A stretch of DNA of 10,181 nucleotides from Rhodocyclaceae bacterium (GTDB taxonomy: Bacteria; Pseudomonadota; Gammaproteobacteria; Burkholderiales; Rhodocyclaceae). Position numbers and translations under genes: made by a program. Shown here piece by piece: positions 3,000 through 9,927 of this stretch. The stretch is from the NCBI GenBank assembly GCA_018262875.1, contig JADFDL010000031.1, positions 1 to 10,181 on the forward strand, read 5' to 3'. The notes under the pieces are model-generated. The model was given only the letters and a program-made list of their open reading frames with translations. It was not told the origin of the DNA and searched no databases. Numbering within the stretch: position 1 is the first letter of the stretch; every line of letters begins with the position of its first letter.

Positions 3000-3191
3000 A
3001 TGGACCGGGACCTCTTCGCGCTCGAAGAACGCATCGAGCAATTCATTTCGCTGTGCCAGAACCTGCGCACCGAGAATCAGGAACTGCGCACGCGCGTGGC
3101 CGGTCTCGAGGTCGAGCGCGGCCGCCTCAATGAAAAAATCGAGACGGCCTGCACCCGCCTGGAATCCCTCATGGAGCGGATACCCGAGTGA
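3000..3191 (+). CDS. zapB: ZapB-like short coiled-coil cell-division protein (TIGR02449 type)
   Basis: This 63-aa, highly charged protein is almost entirely one coiled coil, with heptad-like Leu/Ile spacing from LFALEERIEQFISLCQNL through the ENQELRTRVAGLEVE segment to ESLMERIPE. It belongs to the small coiled-coil family found immediately before zapA in many beta- and gammaproteobacteria. That family is thought to act with ZapA at the division ring, as ZapB does; the exact role here is inferred. The start is fixed at ATG 3000 because an in-frame TAG lies four codons upstream (2988-2990). No Shine-Dalgarno precedes it, which agrees with a leaderless message. Its TGA overlaps the GTG of zapA by 4 nt (GTGA), so the two are coupled. 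Confidence 0.85.
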   Translation: MDRDLFALEERIEQFISLCQNLRTENQELRTRVAGLEVERGRLNEKIETACTRLESLMERIPE

Positions 3192-3499
3192 GCAAGAAGG
3201 AAGCCAACACTCTCGACATCGTCCTCATGGGCCGCGAATACCGCGTCGCCTGCGCGCCGGAAGAGCGCGAGGCCCTGCAAAGCGCGGTGGTCTTCGTCGA
3301 CGAGAAGATGCGTGAAATCGGCGAAAAGACCAAATCCACCGGCGAACGCCTGGCCGTCATGACGGCGCTCAACCTCGCCCACGAACTGCTCTCCATCAAG
3401 CTGCCCGGCGGCTTTGACATGCAGGAGTTCCGGCGTAGAATCGGTTCCATGCAGGCGCGGCTCGACGAAGCGATGGCCAGCCAGGAACAGTTGTTCTAG
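3188..3499 (+). CDS. zapA: Cell division protein ZapA
   Basis: This 103-aa cytosolic protein binds FtsZ and promotes bundling of Z-ring filaments. The ZapA N-terminal globular motif is clear: LDIVLMGREYRVACAPEE, then a helix with VVFVDEKMREI, then RLAVMTALNLAHELL, a very conserved ZapA segment. A C-terminal coiled coil follows (MQEFRRRIGSMQARLDEAM). Length matches the family. The start is GTG at 3188, overlapping the previous stop by 4 nt, so translation probably depends on the upstream gene. The 6S RNA gene begins about 30 nt after the stop, a linkage conserved in many proteobacteria. Confidence 0.95.
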   Translation: MSKKEANTLDIVLMGREYRVACAPEEREALQSAVVFVDEKMREIGEKTKSTGERLAVMTALNLAHELLSIKLPGGFDMQEFRRRIGSMQARLDEAMASQEQLF

Positions 3500-3530: not shown

Positions 3531-3719
3531 AATTCCCCTGCGGTGTTCGCCAAGGCCAACCATTCCTTGAACCGATATGTTGGCATTGGCTGCGGACCAT
3601 GGCGTCACCTTTGTGAGCGTCCCTCATTCGTGAGCCGGACGCACCTGCGGTGACCGGAAAGCGGCCACTCTGGACCTCAGGTTCAGGATGCCGGCCTAGC
3701 GGCACAGGCGGGGGATCCC
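3531..3719 (+). ncRNA. ssrS: 6S RNA (regulator of sigma-70 RNA polymerase)
   Basis: 6S RNA mimics an open promoter and sequesters housekeeping RNA polymerase holoenzyme in stationary phase. The 5' part (CCCCTGCGGTGTTCGCC, then CCTTGAACCGATAT) and the 3' end (GGCGGGGGATCCC) match the E. coli 6S pattern of CUCUGAGAUGUUCGC, CCUGAGCCGAUAU and CAUCUCGGAGAUUCC. Folding supports this. TCCCCTGC (3534-3541) pairs with GCGGGGGA (3708-3715). CCTTGAACC (3565-3573) pairs with GGTTCAGG (3680-3687) around one bulge. GCGTCCCTCA (3617-3626) forms an apical hairpin with TGAGCCGGACGC (3631-3642). Length is about 189 nt against 184 in E. coli. Location directly after zapA is the conserved position. No convincing own promoter is visible, so it may be processed from the zapA transcript. 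Exact ends are estimates. Confidence 0.92.
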
Positions 3720-4232: not shown

Positions 4233-4236
<4 letters not shown>

Positions 4237-5039
4237 GCTTCGATCCCTGGTGGCTGTCCTACCCGCTGCTCGGCGCCTTCGCCGGCTTCATCGCCGGACT
4301 GTTCGGCGTCGGCGGCGGGCTGACGCTGGTGCCGATCCTTTTCATGCTGTACTCCGCGCAGCAGTTTCCGCTGGAGCACGTCATGCATCTCGCGCTGGGC
4401 ACCTCGATGGCTACCATCGTGTTCACCTCGATCTCCAGCATGCGCGCCCATCACGGCCACGGCGCGGTACGCTGGGAAATCGTGCGCGGCCTGGCGCCGG
4501 GGCTGGTCGCCGGCACGCTCGCCGGCACCGCTCTGGCAAGTCTGATTCCGACGCGGCCGCTGGCCATCGTCTTCGTCTGCATCGTGTATTACGCCTCGGC
4601 GCAGATGATGCTCGACTTCAAGCCGAAGCCGCACCGGCAGATGCCGGGCAAGACCGGCATGCTGGCGGCGGGCGGCCTCATCGGCGTCCTCTCCAGCCTG
4701 GTATCGGCCGGCGGCGGCTTCATGTCGATCCCGTTCATGGTGTTCTGCAACGTGGTCATCCACCAGGCGGTGGGCACGTCCGCCGCCCTGGGCTTCCCGA
4801 TCGCCGTTGCCGGCAGCGTCGGCTACCTCGTCGCCGGCTGGAACACCGCCGGCCTGCCGGCCTGGTCACTCGGCTATGTCTATCTGCCGGGTCTGGTCGG
4901 CGTGGCGGCGATGACCATGCTCATCGCGCCGCTCGGCGCGAAGACGGCACACCGGCTGCCGGTGAAGCAGTTGAAGCGCGCCTTCGGCGGCTTCCTCGCC
5001 CTCCTGGGGACGAAGATGCTGCACGGCCTCCTGGGTTGA
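4233..5039 (+). CDS. TauE/SafE-family membrane transporter (sulfite exporter type)
   Basis: This 268-aa integral membrane protein has about eight hydrophobic segments arranged as two homologous halves. Each half holds a Gly-rich family motif: AGLFGVGGGLTLVPIL near residue 23 and LVSAGGGFMSIPFMV near residue 155. LGTSMATIVFTSISSMRAHH and VGTSAALGFPIAVAGSVGYL are the matching second motifs. TauE/SafE proteins export sulfite, sulfoacetate or related organosulfur anions, but substrates vary and cannot be read from sequence. Start is ATG 4233, overlapping the EVE-domain stop, so it is translated in the same operon. It converges with the dsrE-like gene with no base between the two stop codons and no terminator visible. 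The sulfur-related neighbour is suggestive only. Confidence 0.92.
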
Positions 5040-5495
5040 TCAGGGCTTGAGGTAGGCAAAACCCTCCTGCGACTGCAGGCGGCCGATTTCCGCTACGCCG
5101 GACGGCACGATCTTCGCTTCCGGGTGCACCCTGCTCTTGTCGATGTTGCGGCCCTTGAGGGTGAATTCGCAGACGCGGAACTCGACGCCTTTCATGGAGA
5201 GATCGTCGACCGCGGCATCGTAGGGATTGCCGTTCTTGTCCTTGGCGCCTTCGAGCAGGAAGTCGATGCCCCTGAAGTGGGTGACGACGACGATTTTCGC
5301 CGTCGGATCGGCGCTCAGGTGGTTGCGGATGTTGCGCAAGCCGTCGGTGGCCTGCTCCAGTCCGCCATTGATGTGGTAGATGACCTTGTTGGGTTGATCG
5401 GCCTTGCCTCCTGCCTGGGTGCCTCCCGCGGCATAGGCCACGGATGCAAACAGCGCCACGATGGCCAGAAGGGTGAATCGGGCAATGCTTTTCAT
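5040..5495 (-). CDS. Secreted DsrE-family protein
   Basis: This 151-aa protein has a clear signal peptide (basic MKSIAR, hydrophobic core, AYA cleavage at about 20-22), so the mature protein of about 129 residues should be periplasmic. The rest resembles the DsrE/DsrF fold: strand KVIYHING (37-44), a long helix with LRNIRNHLSADP, strand AKIVVVTHFRGIDFLL, strand VEFRVCEFTLKGRNI, then PEAKIVPSGVAEIGRL and the C-terminal GFAYLKP. It has one cysteine, Cys109, at the position where DsrE-type proteins often carry a reactive thiol. Cytosolic relatives relay sulfur, but the role of exported members is largely unknown. AGGAG lies 8 nt before the ATG. It is divergent from the sigma-factor operon, and its promoter has the same ECF-type element. 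Its mature part resembles the periplasmic domain of the anti-sigma factor at 6172-6873. Confidence 0.88.
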   Translation of the reverse strand: MKSIARFTLLAIVALFASVAYAAGGTQAGGKADQPNKVIYHINGGLEQATDGLRNIRNHLSADPTAKIVVVTHFRGIDFLLEGAKDKNGNPYDAAVDDLSMKGVEFRVCEFTLKGRNIDKSRVHPEAKIVPSGVAEIGRLQSQEGFAYLKP

Positions 5496-5548
5496 GGGGA
5501 TTCTCCTGTTCTTGTAGTGGTTTTCCCGCCATCCGGCGGCATGAACAA

Positions 5549-5574
5549 GACGAAGCAGGCAGCCGAAATATTCC
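5549..5574 (-). promoter_or_regulatory. ECF-type promoter of the secreted DsrE gene
   Basis: On the minus strand GGAATAT (5568-5574) is followed after exactly 15 bp by CGTC (5549-5552). This is the same arrangement as the opposite-strand element before the sigma gene. Transcription would begin near 5542, giving a leader of about 45 nt. A GGAA(T/C)-type -35 with a CGTC-like -10 is typical of ECF sigma factors. Recognition by the adjacent sigma factor is inferred. Confidence 0.65.
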
Positions 5575-5585
5575 GGTTCCGCCAG

Positions 5586-5611
5586 GGAATAATCCGGCCG
5601 GCCGCTGCGTC
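5586..5611 (+). promoter_or_regulatory. ECF-type promoter of the sigma/anti-sigma operon (probable autoregulation)
   Basis: GGAATAA (5586-5592) is followed after 15 bp by CGTC (5608-5611). Transcription would begin near 5618, just before the GGAGG at 5623-5627. This places the ATG at 5615 at or upstream of the message start and favours ATG 5636. The element matches the divergent one at 5549-5574 in both boxes and spacing. Confidence 0.7.
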
Positions 5612-5635
5612 ACAATGAAACTGGAGGAAAAGCCG

Positions 5636-6175
5636 ATGCAATGGTTGCAGTCGCGGGTGCAGCGCGAACTGGCGGGGCAGATCGAAGCGAGCCGCGGCCG
5701 GCTCTATCGCCTGGCCTTCGCCTGGTGCCACGATACGACCCTGGCCGACGACCTTGCCCAGGAAACCCTGTCGCGCGGTCTCGCCCGGCTCGAACAGTTG
5801 CGCGAACCGGAGCGGCTCATGAGTTGGCTGTTCGCGATTCTCAACCGCTGCTGGATCGATCATCTGCGCCGCCGGCATGAGGAGGTTGACGACGAAGTGC
5901 TCGCCGAAATGCCGTCGGATCTCCCCGGGCCGGAGGGTTATGCCGAACGGCAGGAGGCGGTCATACGGGTGCGCACCGCCATCGCAGCCTTGCCGCTCGG
6001 ACAGCGCCAGGTGGTCACCCTGGTCGACCTGGAAGAGTTTTCCTACGCGGAAGTCGCCGACATCATGGCGATTCCGATCGGCACCGTCATGAGCCGGCTG
6101 TGCCGCGCGCGCGAGGCCCTGCGCGGACTGCTGAAACCGGCCGCGGCCGAACCGCGCCTGAGGAGCGTGAAATGA
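5636..6175 (+). CDS. ECF-family RNA polymerase sigma factor
   Basis: This is a 179-aa extracytoplasmic-function sigma factor with regions 2 and 4 only. Region 2 spans about 20-80: LYRLAFAWCHDTTLADDLAQ, ETLSRGLARLEQL, MSWLFAILNRCWIDHLRRR. A short acidic linker (EEVDDEVLAEMPSDLPGPEG) follows. Region 4 spans about 115-170, with ALPLGQRQVVTLVDLEEFSYAEVADIM and the helix-turn-helix IPIGTVMSRLCRAREALRGLL. I choose ATG 5636, which has GGAGG 8 nt upstream, rather than ATG 5615, which would add seven residues, lacks a ribosome site and lies at the predicted transcription start. Its TGA overlaps the anti-sigma ATG by 4 nt. It probably drives its own operon and the divergent dsrE-like gene. Fold and class are certain; the ECF subgroup is not assigned. 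Confidence 0.95.
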   Translation: MQWLQSRVQRELAGQIEASRGRLYRLAFAWCHDTTLADDLAQETLSRGLARLEQLREPERLMSWLFAILNRCWIDHLRRRHEEVDDEVLAEMPSDLPGPEGYAERQEAVIRVRTAIAALPLGQRQVVTLVDLEEFSYAEVADIMAIPIGTVMSRLCRAREALRGLLKPAAAEPRLRSVK

Positions 6176-6873
6176 ACGACGCACGAAAAAATTTCTCCGA
6201 CGAAAGCCTGAATGCCTTCGTCGACAACCAGCTCGGCGCCCAGGAGCGCGAGGAAATACTCGCCGCCATCGCCGAGGATGCCGACCTGAGCCGGCGCCTG
6301 TGCGCGCTGCGCTCCACCAAGGAACTGGTGCGCCATGCCTATGGCCAGGTGCCGGCTGTCGGCAGTACGCGGGATCGCCGCCTCCCCTTGTGGAGCGGCG
6401 CCCTGGCGGCAGGCGTGGCGCTGGTTGCCGGCGTGCTGATCGGCTGGCAGGGGCATCGCGCGGCCGACACGTCAGCGTCGAAGTCATTGCTGGCCTGGGC
6501 CGGAAGTTTCTTTGCCGCCCAGCCGACGCGGGTGTTGCTGCATCTGGACAGTTCGCAGGCCGAACACATGGAAGAGGCGCTGGATATGGTCGAAGCCTAT
6601 CTGGCCAAGGCCGGCCACGCCCGGGTGGAGGTCGTGGTCAATAACTCCGGTCTCGATCTGCTGCGCCAGGAAACCACGCCCCACGCGGCGCGTATCGCGG
6701 CGCTCGCCGCACGCCACGAAATGCTGGCCTTCGTCGCCTGCGGCAACGCCATCGCACGCTATCGCAGTGCGGGTCTGGATGTCACGCTGGTGCCGGAAGC
6801 AAAGGTGGAGCGCACCGCGATCGAACACATCGTCGACCGGGTGCGCCAGGGCTGGACTTACCTGAAGATCTGA
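6172..6873 (+). CDS. Transmembrane anti-sigma factor with periplasmic DsrE-like sensor domain
   Basis: This 233-aa protein starts at ATG 6172 with AGGAG 6 nt upstream and overlaps the sigma stop (ATGA). Residues 8-57 (DESLNAFVDNQLGAQEREEI, then ARLCALR-like helices) resemble the N-terminal sigma-binding region of anti-sigma factors. The usual zinc motif HxxxCxxC is absent; only Cys44 lies here. One membrane helix follows (about 73-92, LWSGALAAGVALVAGVLIGW), after a basic RDRR, so the C-terminus should be periplasmic. Residues 120-233 look like a DsrE/DsrF-type domain: RVLLHLDSS, VEVVVNNSGLDLL, MLAFVACGNAIARYRSAGL, VTLVPEAKVE and the end GWTYLKI. Cys190, the PEAK motif and the end match the secreted DsrE protein next door. 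It should hold the sigma factor at the membrane until a periplasmic signal releases it. Anti-sigma function is inferred from operon position and topology. Confidence 0.85.
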   Translation: MNDARKNFSDESLNAFVDNQLGAQEREEILAAIAEDADLSRRLCALRSTKELVRHAYGQVPAVGSTRDRRLPLWSGALAAGVALVAGVLIGWQGHRAADTSASKSLLAWAGSFFAAQPTRVLLHLDSSQAEHMEEALDMVEAYLAKAGHARVEVVVNNSGLDLLRQETTPHAARIAALAARHEMLAFVACGNAIARYRSAGLDVTLVPEAKVERTAIEHIVDRVRQGWTYLKI

Positions 6874-7100: not shown

Positions 7101-7130
7101 ATTATTTGATATTCAAATAAAACGGGTCAG
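7101..7130 (-). promoter_or_regulatory. Possible promoter with AT-rich palindromic operator
   Basis: On the minus strand CTGACC (7125-7130) and AATAAT (7101-7106) are separated by 18 bp and match sigma-70 boxes at four and five of six positions. A 19-bp palindrome, TTATTTGA-TAT-TCAAATAA (7102-7120), covers the -10 box and spacer and has perfect 8-nt arms. It is conspicuously AT-rich in GC-rich surroundings. The -35 box overlaps the stop of the CoA-ligase gene. It would drive the 51-aa gene with a leader of about 80 nt. A repressor site is a reasonable guess, but the regulator is unknown. Confidence 0.45.
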
Positions 7131-8629
7131 CCGGAAAAACGTTGACGCAGCAGGTTCTTCTGCACCTTGCCCATGGCGTTGCGCGGCAGGTCGTCCACGA
7201 AATGCACGGCCTTCGGCACCTTGAAGCCGGCCATGCGGCCCTTCAGCGCGGCGACAATGCCCTCGCCCGTGAGGCCGGCGCCCTCCCGGCCGCGCACCAC
7301 CACGGCGGTCACCGCTTCGCCGAAGTCCGGGTGCGGCAGGCCGATCACGGCGGATTCGGCCACGCCGGGCAGGGCGTCGATGGCCTCCTCGATCTCCTTC
7401 GGGTAGACGTTCAGCCCGCCGCTGATGATGAGGTCCTTGTCGCGGCCGATGATGGCAAGGTAACCCTCTGAGTCGAAGCGGCCCATGTCGCCGGTGCGGA
7501 AGAAGCCGTCCGGCGTGAATTCCTCCCGCGTCTTCTCCGGCATCTGCCAGTAGCCGGCGAAGACATTGTCGCCGCGCACCTGGATGTGGCCGATTTCGCC
7601 AGCCGGCAGGGGCGCGTCGTCATCCCCCACCACGCGCACGTCCGTGCCCGGCAGGGGGAAGCCGACCGTGCCGCCGCGCCGCTCGCCCTCGAGCGGGTTG
7701 GAGGTGAACATGCCGCCCTCGGTCATGCCGTAGCGCTCGAGGAGGGTCTGGCCGGTGCGTTCGCGGAACGCACTGAAAGTCTCCGGCAGCAGCGGCGCCG
7801 AGCCGGAGATGAACAGGCGCATGTGGGCGACGGCTTCGCGCGTCAGGCCCTTTTCCTGCAGCAGCCGCACGTAATAGGTCGGCACGCCCATGAACACCGT
7901 CGCCTCCTGCATCAGCCGCAACGCGCGCGATGCATCGAACTTCGGCTCGAACAGCATCGGACTGCCGTTGAGCAACGCGCAGTGCGTGGCGACGAAGAGG
8001 CCGTGCACGTGAAAAGTCGGCAGCATGTGCAGCAGCACGTCGCCGGGGCGGAAGCCCCAGTATTTGTGCAGCACCAGCCCGTTGGCGGCCAGGTTGCGGT
8101 GGGTGAGCATCGCCCCCTTCGAGCGGCCGGTGGTGCCGGAGGTGTAGACGATCGAAGCCAGGTCGCCGTCGGCGCGTTCGACGGTGGCGAACGTCTCGGG
8201 CATCTGCACCGCGGCGGCAGCCAGGCTGCCCTCGCCGCGCGCGCCGAGGTCATGTACCAGCGGCAGGCGGCTGGCCCAGGCCAGTTCCTGCGCCTCCTCC
8301 AGCCGCTCGGGCGCGCAGACGAACAGGCCGGGCCGGGCATCGTCGAGGAAGAAGGCGACCTCGCTGCGCGTATAGGCGGGATTCAGCGGCAGGAAGACGC
8401 AGCCGGCGCGCAGGCAGCCGAGGTAGAGGAAGAGCGCCTCGGCGGATTTCTCCACCTGCGCGGCGACGCGGTCGCCCGGCGCGAGTCCGGCCTCGGCGAG
8501 CAGTGCGCCGTATCGCGCGGACTGACTTTCCAGTTCGGCGTAGCTCAGGCGCCGGCCGTCGGGCAGGATCAGGCAGGGCGCCTCGCCCTCGGCCGGGAAG
8601 CGCGAGGCCAGCAGGCCGTACAGGTTCAT
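7127..8629 (-). CDS. matB: Malonyl-CoA synthetase (MatB-type acyl-CoA ligase)
   Basis: This 500-aa cytosolic ANL-superfamily ligase should convert malonate, ATP and CoA to malonyl-CoA, AMP and pyrophosphate. Motifs seen: the P-loop YTSGTTGRSKG (162-172), MLPTFHVHGLF (202-212), SGSAPL (275-280), ERYGMTEGGM (298-307), GFRTGD-like FFRTGD (376-381), GRDKDLIISGGLNVYPKEIE (395-414), and the catalytic-lysine region NAMGKVQK with Lys488. Length and the MTEGGMFTSNP segment fit MatB better than acetyl-CoA or long-chain synthetases. The start is ATG 8629, which overlaps the stop of the decarboxylase gene by 4 nt (ATGA). A longer open frame extends upstream to 9823 but only as a shadow of that gene. Pairing with malonyl-CoA decarboxylase supports malonate as substrate; methylmalonate is possible too. 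Confidence 0.88.
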   Translation of the reverse strand: MNLYGLLASRFPAEGEAPCLILPDGRRLSYAELESQSARYGALLAEAGLAPGDRVAAQVEKSAEALFLYLGCLRAGCVFLPLNPAYTRSEVAFFLDDARPGLFVCAPERLEEAQELAWASRLPLVHDLGARGEGSLAAAAVQMPETFATVERADGDLASIVYTSGTTGRSKGAMLTHRNLAANGLVLHKYWGFRPGDVLLHMLPTFHVHGLFVATHCALLNGSPMLFEPKFDASRALRLMQEATVFMGVPTYYVRLLQEKGLTREAVAHMRLFISGSAPLLPETFSAFRERTGQTLLERYGMTEGGMFTSNPLEGERRGGTVGFPLPGTDVRVVGDDDAPLPAGEIGHIQVRGDNVFAGYWQMPEKTREEFTPDGFFRTGDMGRFDSEGYLAIIGRDKDLIISGGLNVYPKEIEEAIDALPGVAESAVIGLPHPDFGEAVTAVVVRGREGAGLTGEGIVAALKGRMAGFKVPKAVHFVDDLPRNAMGKVQKNLLRQRFSG

Positions 8630-9927
8630 GCCTTGGCCAGCCGGCGGATGGCGGCCGTGGCGGCGATGCGGTCCTCGCCGACGAAGGCTTCGACGTTCTG
8701 CTCGATCTCGTCGGGGTCGTACAGGTAGTTCACCATCAGGCCGCAGGACTGCCTGAAGCCCTTGGCCGAGGCATCCGCCAGGAAATCGATGCGCTCGATG
8801 CGGGCGCCGTTGCCGAGGTGGAAGCGCGCCACCGGGTCGAAGGGACGGCCGTTCTGGCGGACGGCGTAGAGGTAGCGGGCGGCGAGGGCCTCGAGCGGAT
8901 CGCGCAGGCGGCGCGCCAGGGCCTTGTCCTGCGCCCAGCCGCCCGACTGCAGCTGGGCCAGCGTGAAGCCGAGCCCCTCGAGGGCTTCCGGCGTGCGCTT
9001 CAGCCAGGCGCAGAACTGCGGCAGCGGCGACAGCGTGGCGAAGGTCTTCAGCTGCGGGAAGTCGCGCTTCAGGTCGTCGATGACGCGCTTCAGCAGGAAG
9101 TTGCCGAAGGTGACGCCGCGCAGGCCGGCCTGGGTATTGGAGATCGAGTAGAAGATCGCCGTGTCGGCGCGATCGGCCTCCAGCACCGGGGCGTGCTCGT
9201 CGAGCAGCGCCTGGATGTTGCCGGAAAGCTCTTTCGTCAGCGCCACCTCGACGAAGATCAGTGGTTCGGCCGGCATGCGCGGGTGGAAGAAGGCGTACAG
9301 GCGGCGGTCGGAACCGAGGCGGTTCCTCAGGTCGCTCCAGGAGCGGATCTCGTGCACCGCCTCGTACTGGATCAGCTTTTCCAGCAGCGAGGCGGGAGAG
9401 TTCCAGGTGATGCGCTGCAATTCGAGGAAGCCGACGTCGAACCAGGCGGTCAGGCGCGACTCCAGCTCGCGGTCGAGCACCGCCAGCTCCTCGTCCTTCT
9501 CCAGAAAACGCAGCAGGTCGGCGCGCAGGTCGACGAGGAATTTCACGCCCTGCGGCAGGGCGTTGAATTGGGTCAGGATGCGGATGCGCGAGGAGCGCAG
9601 GGCGGCGCGCAGGTCGGCCTCGGCGTCCCACTGGCCGGGCGTGCCGGCCGCCGCCTGGTAGGCACGGTGCGCGGCGTCCACCTTCGCCGGCTCGGGGCCG
9701 AAGTCGAGGGCGATGCGCCGCAGGAACTCGTGGCGGCCGGCGTCGTCGAGGCCGAGGTAGGTCTCGCCCAGCTTCGCCGCCCGGCCGCGCGCGGCGACCT
9801 CGCCGCCTGTGCCGGCGGCGCATTCCTGCAGTTGCCGGCGCAATTGCGCCAGCAGCTTCGGCGTCATGGGCTGGCGTCCGGGCTTGCCGCCGACCAGGGA
9901 TTTGACGCGCCTGAGAATGCCTTCCAT
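8626..9927 (-). CDS. matA: Malonyl-CoA decarboxylase
   Basis: This 433-aa MCD-family enzyme decarboxylates malonyl-CoA to acetyl-CoA and CO2. An N-terminal helical oligomerisation region (about 25-150) is followed by the acetyltransferase-like catalytic domain. Conserved segments include ITWNSPASLLEKLIQYEAVH (173-192), FFHPRMPAEPLIFVEVAL (213-230), FYSISNTQAGLRGVTFGNFL (259-278), FATLSPLPQF (296-305), FHLGNGARIERI (369-380, with the His expected in the active site) and SCGLMVNYLY (394-403). Ser261 or Ser263 in the SISNTQ segment corresponds to the region of the catalytic Ser. Length agrees with bacterial MatA. AGGAGG lies 6 nt before ATG 9927 and overlaps the preceding gene's stop region. With matB it forms a malonate to acetyl-CoA pathway. 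No N-terminal targeting signal is present. Confidence 0.93.
   Translation of the reverse strand: MEGILRRVKSLVGGKPGRQPMTPKLLAQLRRQLQECAAGTGGEVAARGRAAKLGETYLGLDDAGRHEFLRRIALDFGPEPAKVDAAHRAYQAAAGTPGQWDAEADLRAALRSSRIRILTQFNALPQGVKFLVDLRADLLRFLEKDEELAVLDRELESRLTAWFDVGFLELQRITWNSPASLLEKLIQYEAVHEIRSWSDLRNRLGSDRRLYAFFHPRMPAEPLIFVEVALTKELSGNIQALLDEHAPVLEADRADTAIFYSISNTQAGLRGVTFGNFLLKRVIDDLKRDFPQLKTFATLSPLPQFCAWLKRTPEALEGLGFTLAQLQSGGWAQDKALARRLRDPLEALAARYLYAVRQNGRPFDPVARFHLGNGARIERIDFLADASAKGFRQSCGLMVNYLYDPDEIEQNVEAFVGEDRIAATAAIRRLAKA

Follow-up and report, generated by a model that had tools for sequence, protein, structure and literature searches.

Previous work on ECF26 circuits, in the available text of the papers, showed that they respond to sulfite, thiosulfate, taurine or tetrathionate (PMC3511301, PMC6527743, PMC6180224). 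The promoter consensus given there is -35 GGAAT and -10 CGTC for S. meliloti and St. novella (PMC6527743), or GGAATA/GT (PMC6180224), and the periplasmic domain of the anti-sigma factors is described as RsiW-like (PMC6180224). The window, a 10,181-nucleotide stretch of DNA from a Rhodocyclaceae bacterium, contains a sigma/anti-sigma pair that resembles the ECF26 circuits of S. meliloti (RpoE1/RpoE4/RpoE6 with EcfR) and Starkeya novella (SigE, RpoE1) in promoter consensus, in sigma-then-anti-sigma gene order, and in an N-terminal anti-sigma domain and helix that align with theirs. Where the ECF26 anti-sigma factors carry an RsiW-like periplasmic domain, however, the window's anti-sigma factor carries a DsrE domain. 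The original prediction had called the circuit undescribed. That description holds for the DsrE sensor domain, which is the new part of an ECF26-related circuit, but not for the promoter and the N-terminal anti-sigma domain, which tie the pair to the described ECF26 sulfite/tetrathionate circuits.

Four anti-sigma factors encoded beside related sigma factors on plasmid records of S. meliloti (pSymA), Methylorubrum, Caballeronia and Paroceanicella were used for comparison. The pSymA protein was taken to be EcfR6 from the gene order in the paper, the record being without annotation, and we infer that the other three belong to ECF26. The profile alignment with these four proteins covers residues 5-102 alone (E 5.5e-15), and none of the four matched Pfam DsrE; the window's pair is therefore provisionally classed as "ECF26-like with a different sensor". 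In a pairwise comparison only, the window's sigma factor shared 42% identity with the pSymA sigma factor, taken to be RpoE6, across 161 residues.

The fold and the conserved cysteine of the periplasmic domain are common to the DsrE/DsrF/YchN/TusD family. Known proteins of that family are soluble and mostly cytoplasmic, whereas in the window's anti-sigma factor the DsrE domain sits in the periplasm, anchored to the membrane and joined to an anti-sigma domain in one protein. Relative to MucA/RseA and class I anti-sigma factors, as far as the available text describes them (8Z6G; PMC7406223), the window's protein lacks the HxxxCxxC zinc motif (judged by eye) and has an unlike sensor domain. Arcobacter butzleri ECF sigma 2 and 7 alter sox expression, as is proposed here; the available text of that report does not mention a DsrE domain, and the two systems were set side by side by description only (PMC3445524). 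A literature search, with most subscription papers outside its scope, found no account of an anti-sigma factor with a DsrE domain, and source databases label individual members as "DsrE family protein" or as "transmembrane anti-sigma factor". PMC3511301 and PMC2729926 were considered as papers joining anti-sigma, DsrE and ECF and were discarded, the term in their available text being "DsRed"; PMC10512742 was likewise discarded as a DsrE-STAS link, since in its available text the mentions of DsrE and STAS stand apart.

Gene layout and the periplasmic domain

The ECF sigma factor gene (5636..6175, + strand; 179 aa; Sigma70_r2 E 1.4e-11, r4_2 E 3.4e-16) and the anti-sigma factor gene (6172..6873, +; 233 aa) share an ATGA overlap at 6172-6175. 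Divergent from them is the gene for a secreted DsrE-family protein (5040..5495, -; 151 aa; Pfam DsrE E 5.1e-9) with a signal peptide to about residue 22, placed by eye, and Cys109. Both the overlap and the divergent secreted protein were as originally predicted. These two DsrE matches, the anti-sigma factor and the divergent secreted protein, were the only ones in the window's own genome, which is about 54% complete. Convergent with the DsrE gene lies a gene for a TauE/SafE-family membrane protein (4233..5039, +; PF01925 E 2.4e-52), a possible partner of the system; no promoter motif was found for this gene.

The anti-sigma factor consists of an anti-sigma domain (about residues 9-58; 6196..6345, +), one membrane helix (about residues 73-100; 6388..6471, +), which is a helix in the predicted model and hydrophobic by eye, and a periplasmic DsrE-fold domain (residues 116-233; 6517..6870, +) assigned by profile and structure comparisons. 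The N-terminal helical domain is of the class I anti-sigma type and is predicted to bind sigma. In the cytoplasmic anti-sigma domain, Cys44 (6301-6303) is conserved in 78/80 relatives despite the lack of the zinc motif. For the periplasmic part, Pfam DsrE (PF02635) scored 20.9 bits against the whole protein, under the cut-off of 22.7, and 22.9 bits against residues 104-233 alone, a marginal pass; at E 1e-3 it matched just 11/50 homologues. Profile and structure comparisons concur clearly on the DsrE fold, with the structural match to the DsrE/DsrF/YchN/TusD family (1L1S, 2PD2, DsrE of DsrEFH, TusD) covering residues 118-233. The sole periplasmic cysteine, Cys190 (codon 6739..6741, +), aligns with Cys109 of the soluble DsrE protein and with the conserved cysteine of the DsrE family, which we take to be the catalytic position. 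The comparison thus bears out the predicted one-helix anti-sigma factor with a DsrE-type periplasmic part and Cys190.

Promoter motif and conservation among relatives

The 119-base intergenic region contains GGAATA-N16-CGTC twice, where base composition would predict about 1e-4. One copy is the sigma-operon promoter (-35 GGAATA, N16, -10 CGTC; 5586..5611, +) and the other, with the same elements, is the DsrE promoter (5549..5574, -). A looser motif with spacings of 15-17 matched three times across the window, where shuffles gave 0.02; the third match, at 816, lies inside another gene. Because the promoter element is shared, the sigma factor very likely drives the soluble DsrE gene as well as its own operon, in keeping with the predicted rise of the soluble protein. 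The sigma start was set from the promoter and the Shine-Dalgarno position: ATG 5615 was rejected and ATG 5636 is most likely, because the -10 CGTC lies at 5608-5611 and GGAGG at 5624-5628 fits the latter.

A profile scan of named genomes gave 333 pattern matches and 237 relatives, and the best 80 of the 237 (L021-L100) were used. These 80 loci are non-independent, with about 20 from close Rhodocyclales relatives of the window and the rest down to about 31% identity. They come from Rhodocyclaceae, Sulfuritalea, Thiobacillus, Sulfuriferula, Parasulfuritortus, Acidiferrobacter, Guyparkeria, Halothiobacillus, Thiohalobacter, Hydrogenophilus and numerous unclassified bins. In 80/80 loci the sigma gene immediately precedes the anti-sigma gene on the same strand. 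Within the flanks (up to 8 kb), 55/80 loci carry another DsrE gene, divergent in 52 and solely downstream on the same strand in three (L045, L069, L078); in the other 25 loci no further DsrE gene was found in those flanks. The three genes thus occur together well beyond the genus. Cys190 and His124 are each unchanged in all 80 proteins, and every periplasmic part has exactly one cysteine. Some loci are more elaborate: L021, L022, L023 and L028 have a tandem pair of DsrE genes opposite sigma where the window has one, and in L051 and L068 the sigma/anti-sigma pair occurs in two nearby copies, with a DsrE gene after the second. On contig C10 of G009 (L017, L020), pieces like anti-sigma residues 5-42 and 178-233 lie inside a 180-aa open frame, perhaps a shortened anti-sigma copy.

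A first exact count of GGAAT-N17-CGT found 67/80 sigma promoters and 46/80 divergent pairs; allowing one mismatch and spacers of 15-17 raised the counts to 79/80 and 56/80. The sole locus missing the motif before sigma, L099, has no upstream sequence. The opposite-facing motif was present in 51/52 loci with a divergent DsrE gene, versus 5/28 without one. Among these five, the motif faces a YeeE/TsuA-like gene in L071, a hydrolase-like gene followed by a YeeE/TsuA-like gene in L041 and L042, a gene for a SoxB-like protein below the family cut-off in L094, and no assigned gene in L079. In the 36 kb upstream of the sigma genes the strict motif was counted 115 times; the remaining 1,068 kb of these loci contained four copies.

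Among 370 sampled genomes of the window's class, 73 had a full-length match at our own cut. In a phylum sample of 397 genomes the full-length matches, among the matches listed, all belonged to four genomes within the window's class; beyond that class, separate DsrE parts or N-terminal parts scored. A plasmid tblastn search with the anti-sigma factor gave one weak match, in Azospirillum.

Sulfur genes and remote targets of the motif

The system is associated with Sox-type sulfur oxidisers: SoxB was found in 72/73 full-length carriers versus 87/297 others (Fisher p 1.5e-30 over the 370 class genomes, kinship ignored), the sole carrier without it being G122. The gene surroundings also support a link to sulfur. 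A TauE gene lies near the system in 17/80 loci, all among L021-L040; relatives of SoxY, SoxZ, YeeE and SoxB are found near it in L041, L042, L071 and L080; and SoxYZ genes flank it on both sides in G033. A porin-like gene follows DsrE on the DsrE strand in 20/80 loci (for example L043, L047, L057, L062 and L080). The one such protein scanned, that of L047, is Porin_O_P, an outer membrane type, and these proteins are possibly porins for sulfur compounds.

Remote motif sites were sought in 16 genomes without DsrE beside sigma, namely 15 genomes holding 16 of the 25 such loci, plus G033. The search pattern was GGAATAAN{14,15}CGTC, with the reversed pattern as control. It gave 62 sites versus 8 for the control; 17 were promoters of sigma itself, leaving 45 others. 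Downstream of these 45, on the same strand, were DsrE at eight (G033, G808, G809, G810, G812, G813, G814, G815), soxB at four (G804, G806, G808, G810), soxX at three (G804, G806, G811; leaders of about 170-287 bases), dsbD at three (G809, G814, G815), a secreted TPR protein at two (G807, G813), and soxY at five (G808, G810, two in G814, G815), two of the soxY cases comprising the first 42 residues only, at contig ends. Twenty of the 45 sites had no assigned target, and no motif-bearing DsrE was found in 8/16 of the genomes searched. Family scans placed three SoxX, two DsbD and three DsrE proteins over the cut-off, and two SoxB proteins over it with one incomplete copy below; both SoxY proteins scanned were below the NCBIfam cut-off and one was over the Pfam cut-off. 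The remaining targets were named by sequence likeness or by the profile of these loci's DsrE proteins. From the promoter sequences we strongly infer that the freed sigma factor transcribes sox and dsbD genes in some lineages.

In the window's own genus the circuit looks local, because the GGAATAA sites of two relatives are confined to the intergenic region: G001 and G010 have 14 and 23 looser-pattern matches with two GGAATAA starts each, both between sigma and DsrE. With that pair as their sole GGAATAA sites, no sox target was found in these two genomes. In the window's own genome, three extra motif sites (L262-L264) lie within or beside genes without a clear sulfur link.

A further remote DsrE gene with the motif was seen in Sulfuriferula (L133), and in a 12-genome set several further motif sites had neither a DsrE nor an anti-sigma gene within 1.5 kb. 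The secreted TPR-repeat protein is encoded directly behind the motif in two genomes (L238 1104-1904, L260 485-1300). Similar-looking sites occur in related genomes in L222 (1501-1526), L249, L242, L246 and L143; in both L222 and L249 it is oriented away from a gene for a secreted protein, which we take to resemble DUF302, and in L222 DsrE comes after.

Proposed mechanism and rival explanations

Starting from a domain make-up, a single invariant periplasmic cysteine and a conserved divergent promoter pair that were established by computation, we think it probable that the window encodes an ECF26-like sigma/anti-sigma pair with a DsrE-fold periplasmic sensor, a sulfur signal and feedback via soluble DsrE. 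The N-terminal anti-sigma domain would hold sigma until Cys190 responds, directly or via soluble DsrE, to periplasmic sulfane sulfur, thiosulfate, tetrathionate or sulfite. Release of sigma may be direct or by proteolysis. Freed sigma would then transcribe its own operon together with the gene for soluble DsrE, with the sox and dsbD genes as added targets in some lineages, and the soluble DsrE protein may carry or buffer that sulfur, closing a feedback loop. Since there is one cysteine per periplasmic domain, the candidate chemistry is formation of a thiosulfonate or persulfide, or of a mixed disulfide with Cys109 of soluble DsrE. The available text of PMC4175335 treats the conserved DsrE cysteine as the catalytic position and reports that DsrE3A cysteines pick up thiosulfate from tetrathionate and are unreactive toward thiosulfate, polysulfide and sulfite; the signal can therefore not be read from the DsrE fold. 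A bolder proposal, which we put forward tentatively, is that these proteins form a new class of periplasmic sulfur-state sensor, in which the anti-sigma DsrE domain may read thiosulfonate or persulfide load through its invariant cysteine, exchanging with sigma-made soluble DsrE carriers, as a switch dedicated to Sox-type sulfur oxidation in some lineages.

The soluble DsrE protein could itself be the primary sensor and control release by docking, in loaded or unloaded form, on the membrane DsrE domain. DsrEFH and TusBCD are hetero-oligomers, a precedent for docking among DsrE-family subunits, and the two proteins here have a common fold, an aligned cysteine and, in most loci, co-regulation. 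Yet the 25/80 loci without a flanking DsrE gene would have to draw their docking partner from elsewhere, and, because of how the search was built, the anti-sigma factor alone occurs in every locus; we regard this arrangement as rather doubtful. Chance as the source of the DsrE resemblance and gene order draws on the sub-threshold Pfam score of the whole protein; it is so improbable as to be excluded in practice, given that fold comparisons agree and that order and promoters persist in relatives with as little as about 31% identity.

A general thiol or oxidative stress signal, with the sulfur genes as downstream repair or by-product, would suit a single reactive cysteine, a plausible oxidant target, and the dsbD targets in three genomes. 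It is nevertheless unlikely: DsrE and sox targets are commoner than stress genes, carriers are almost confined to SoxB genomes, and ECF26 relatives, in the available text of their reports, answer to sulfite or tetrathionate. We give equally little weight to a circuit that simply detoxifies sulfite, as with S. meliloti RpoE4, the DsrE domain being a scaffold without a sensing role. The promoter consensus is identical to that in the available text of PMC6527743 and TauE/SafE adjoins the system in the 17 loci above, but a scaffold would have no need of the single periplasmic cysteine and His124, both invariant in 80/80.

To our knowledge, the periplasmic sensing of sulfur compounds by sulfur oxidisers is little understood. 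With its defined sensor domain, single candidate residue, promoter code and short list of targets (among them soxB, soxX and soxY in some lineages), the system makes such sensing directly testable. If the ECF26-like reading with a DsrE sensor is true, a sulfur-carrier fold would have been recruited as a receiver for transcription control.

Elsewhere in the window, a cobalamin riboswitch (2652-2859, -; Rfam, 113.8 bits) lies upstream of a TonB-dependent receptor gene (561-2522, -), whose product is therefore probably a BtuB-like vitamin B12 receptor. zapA (3188-3499, +) is followed by 6S RNA (3532-3718, +; Rfam, 58.7 bits), and an AMP-binding enzyme gene (7127-8320, -) adjoins a malonyl-CoA decarboxylase gene (8626-9927, -).
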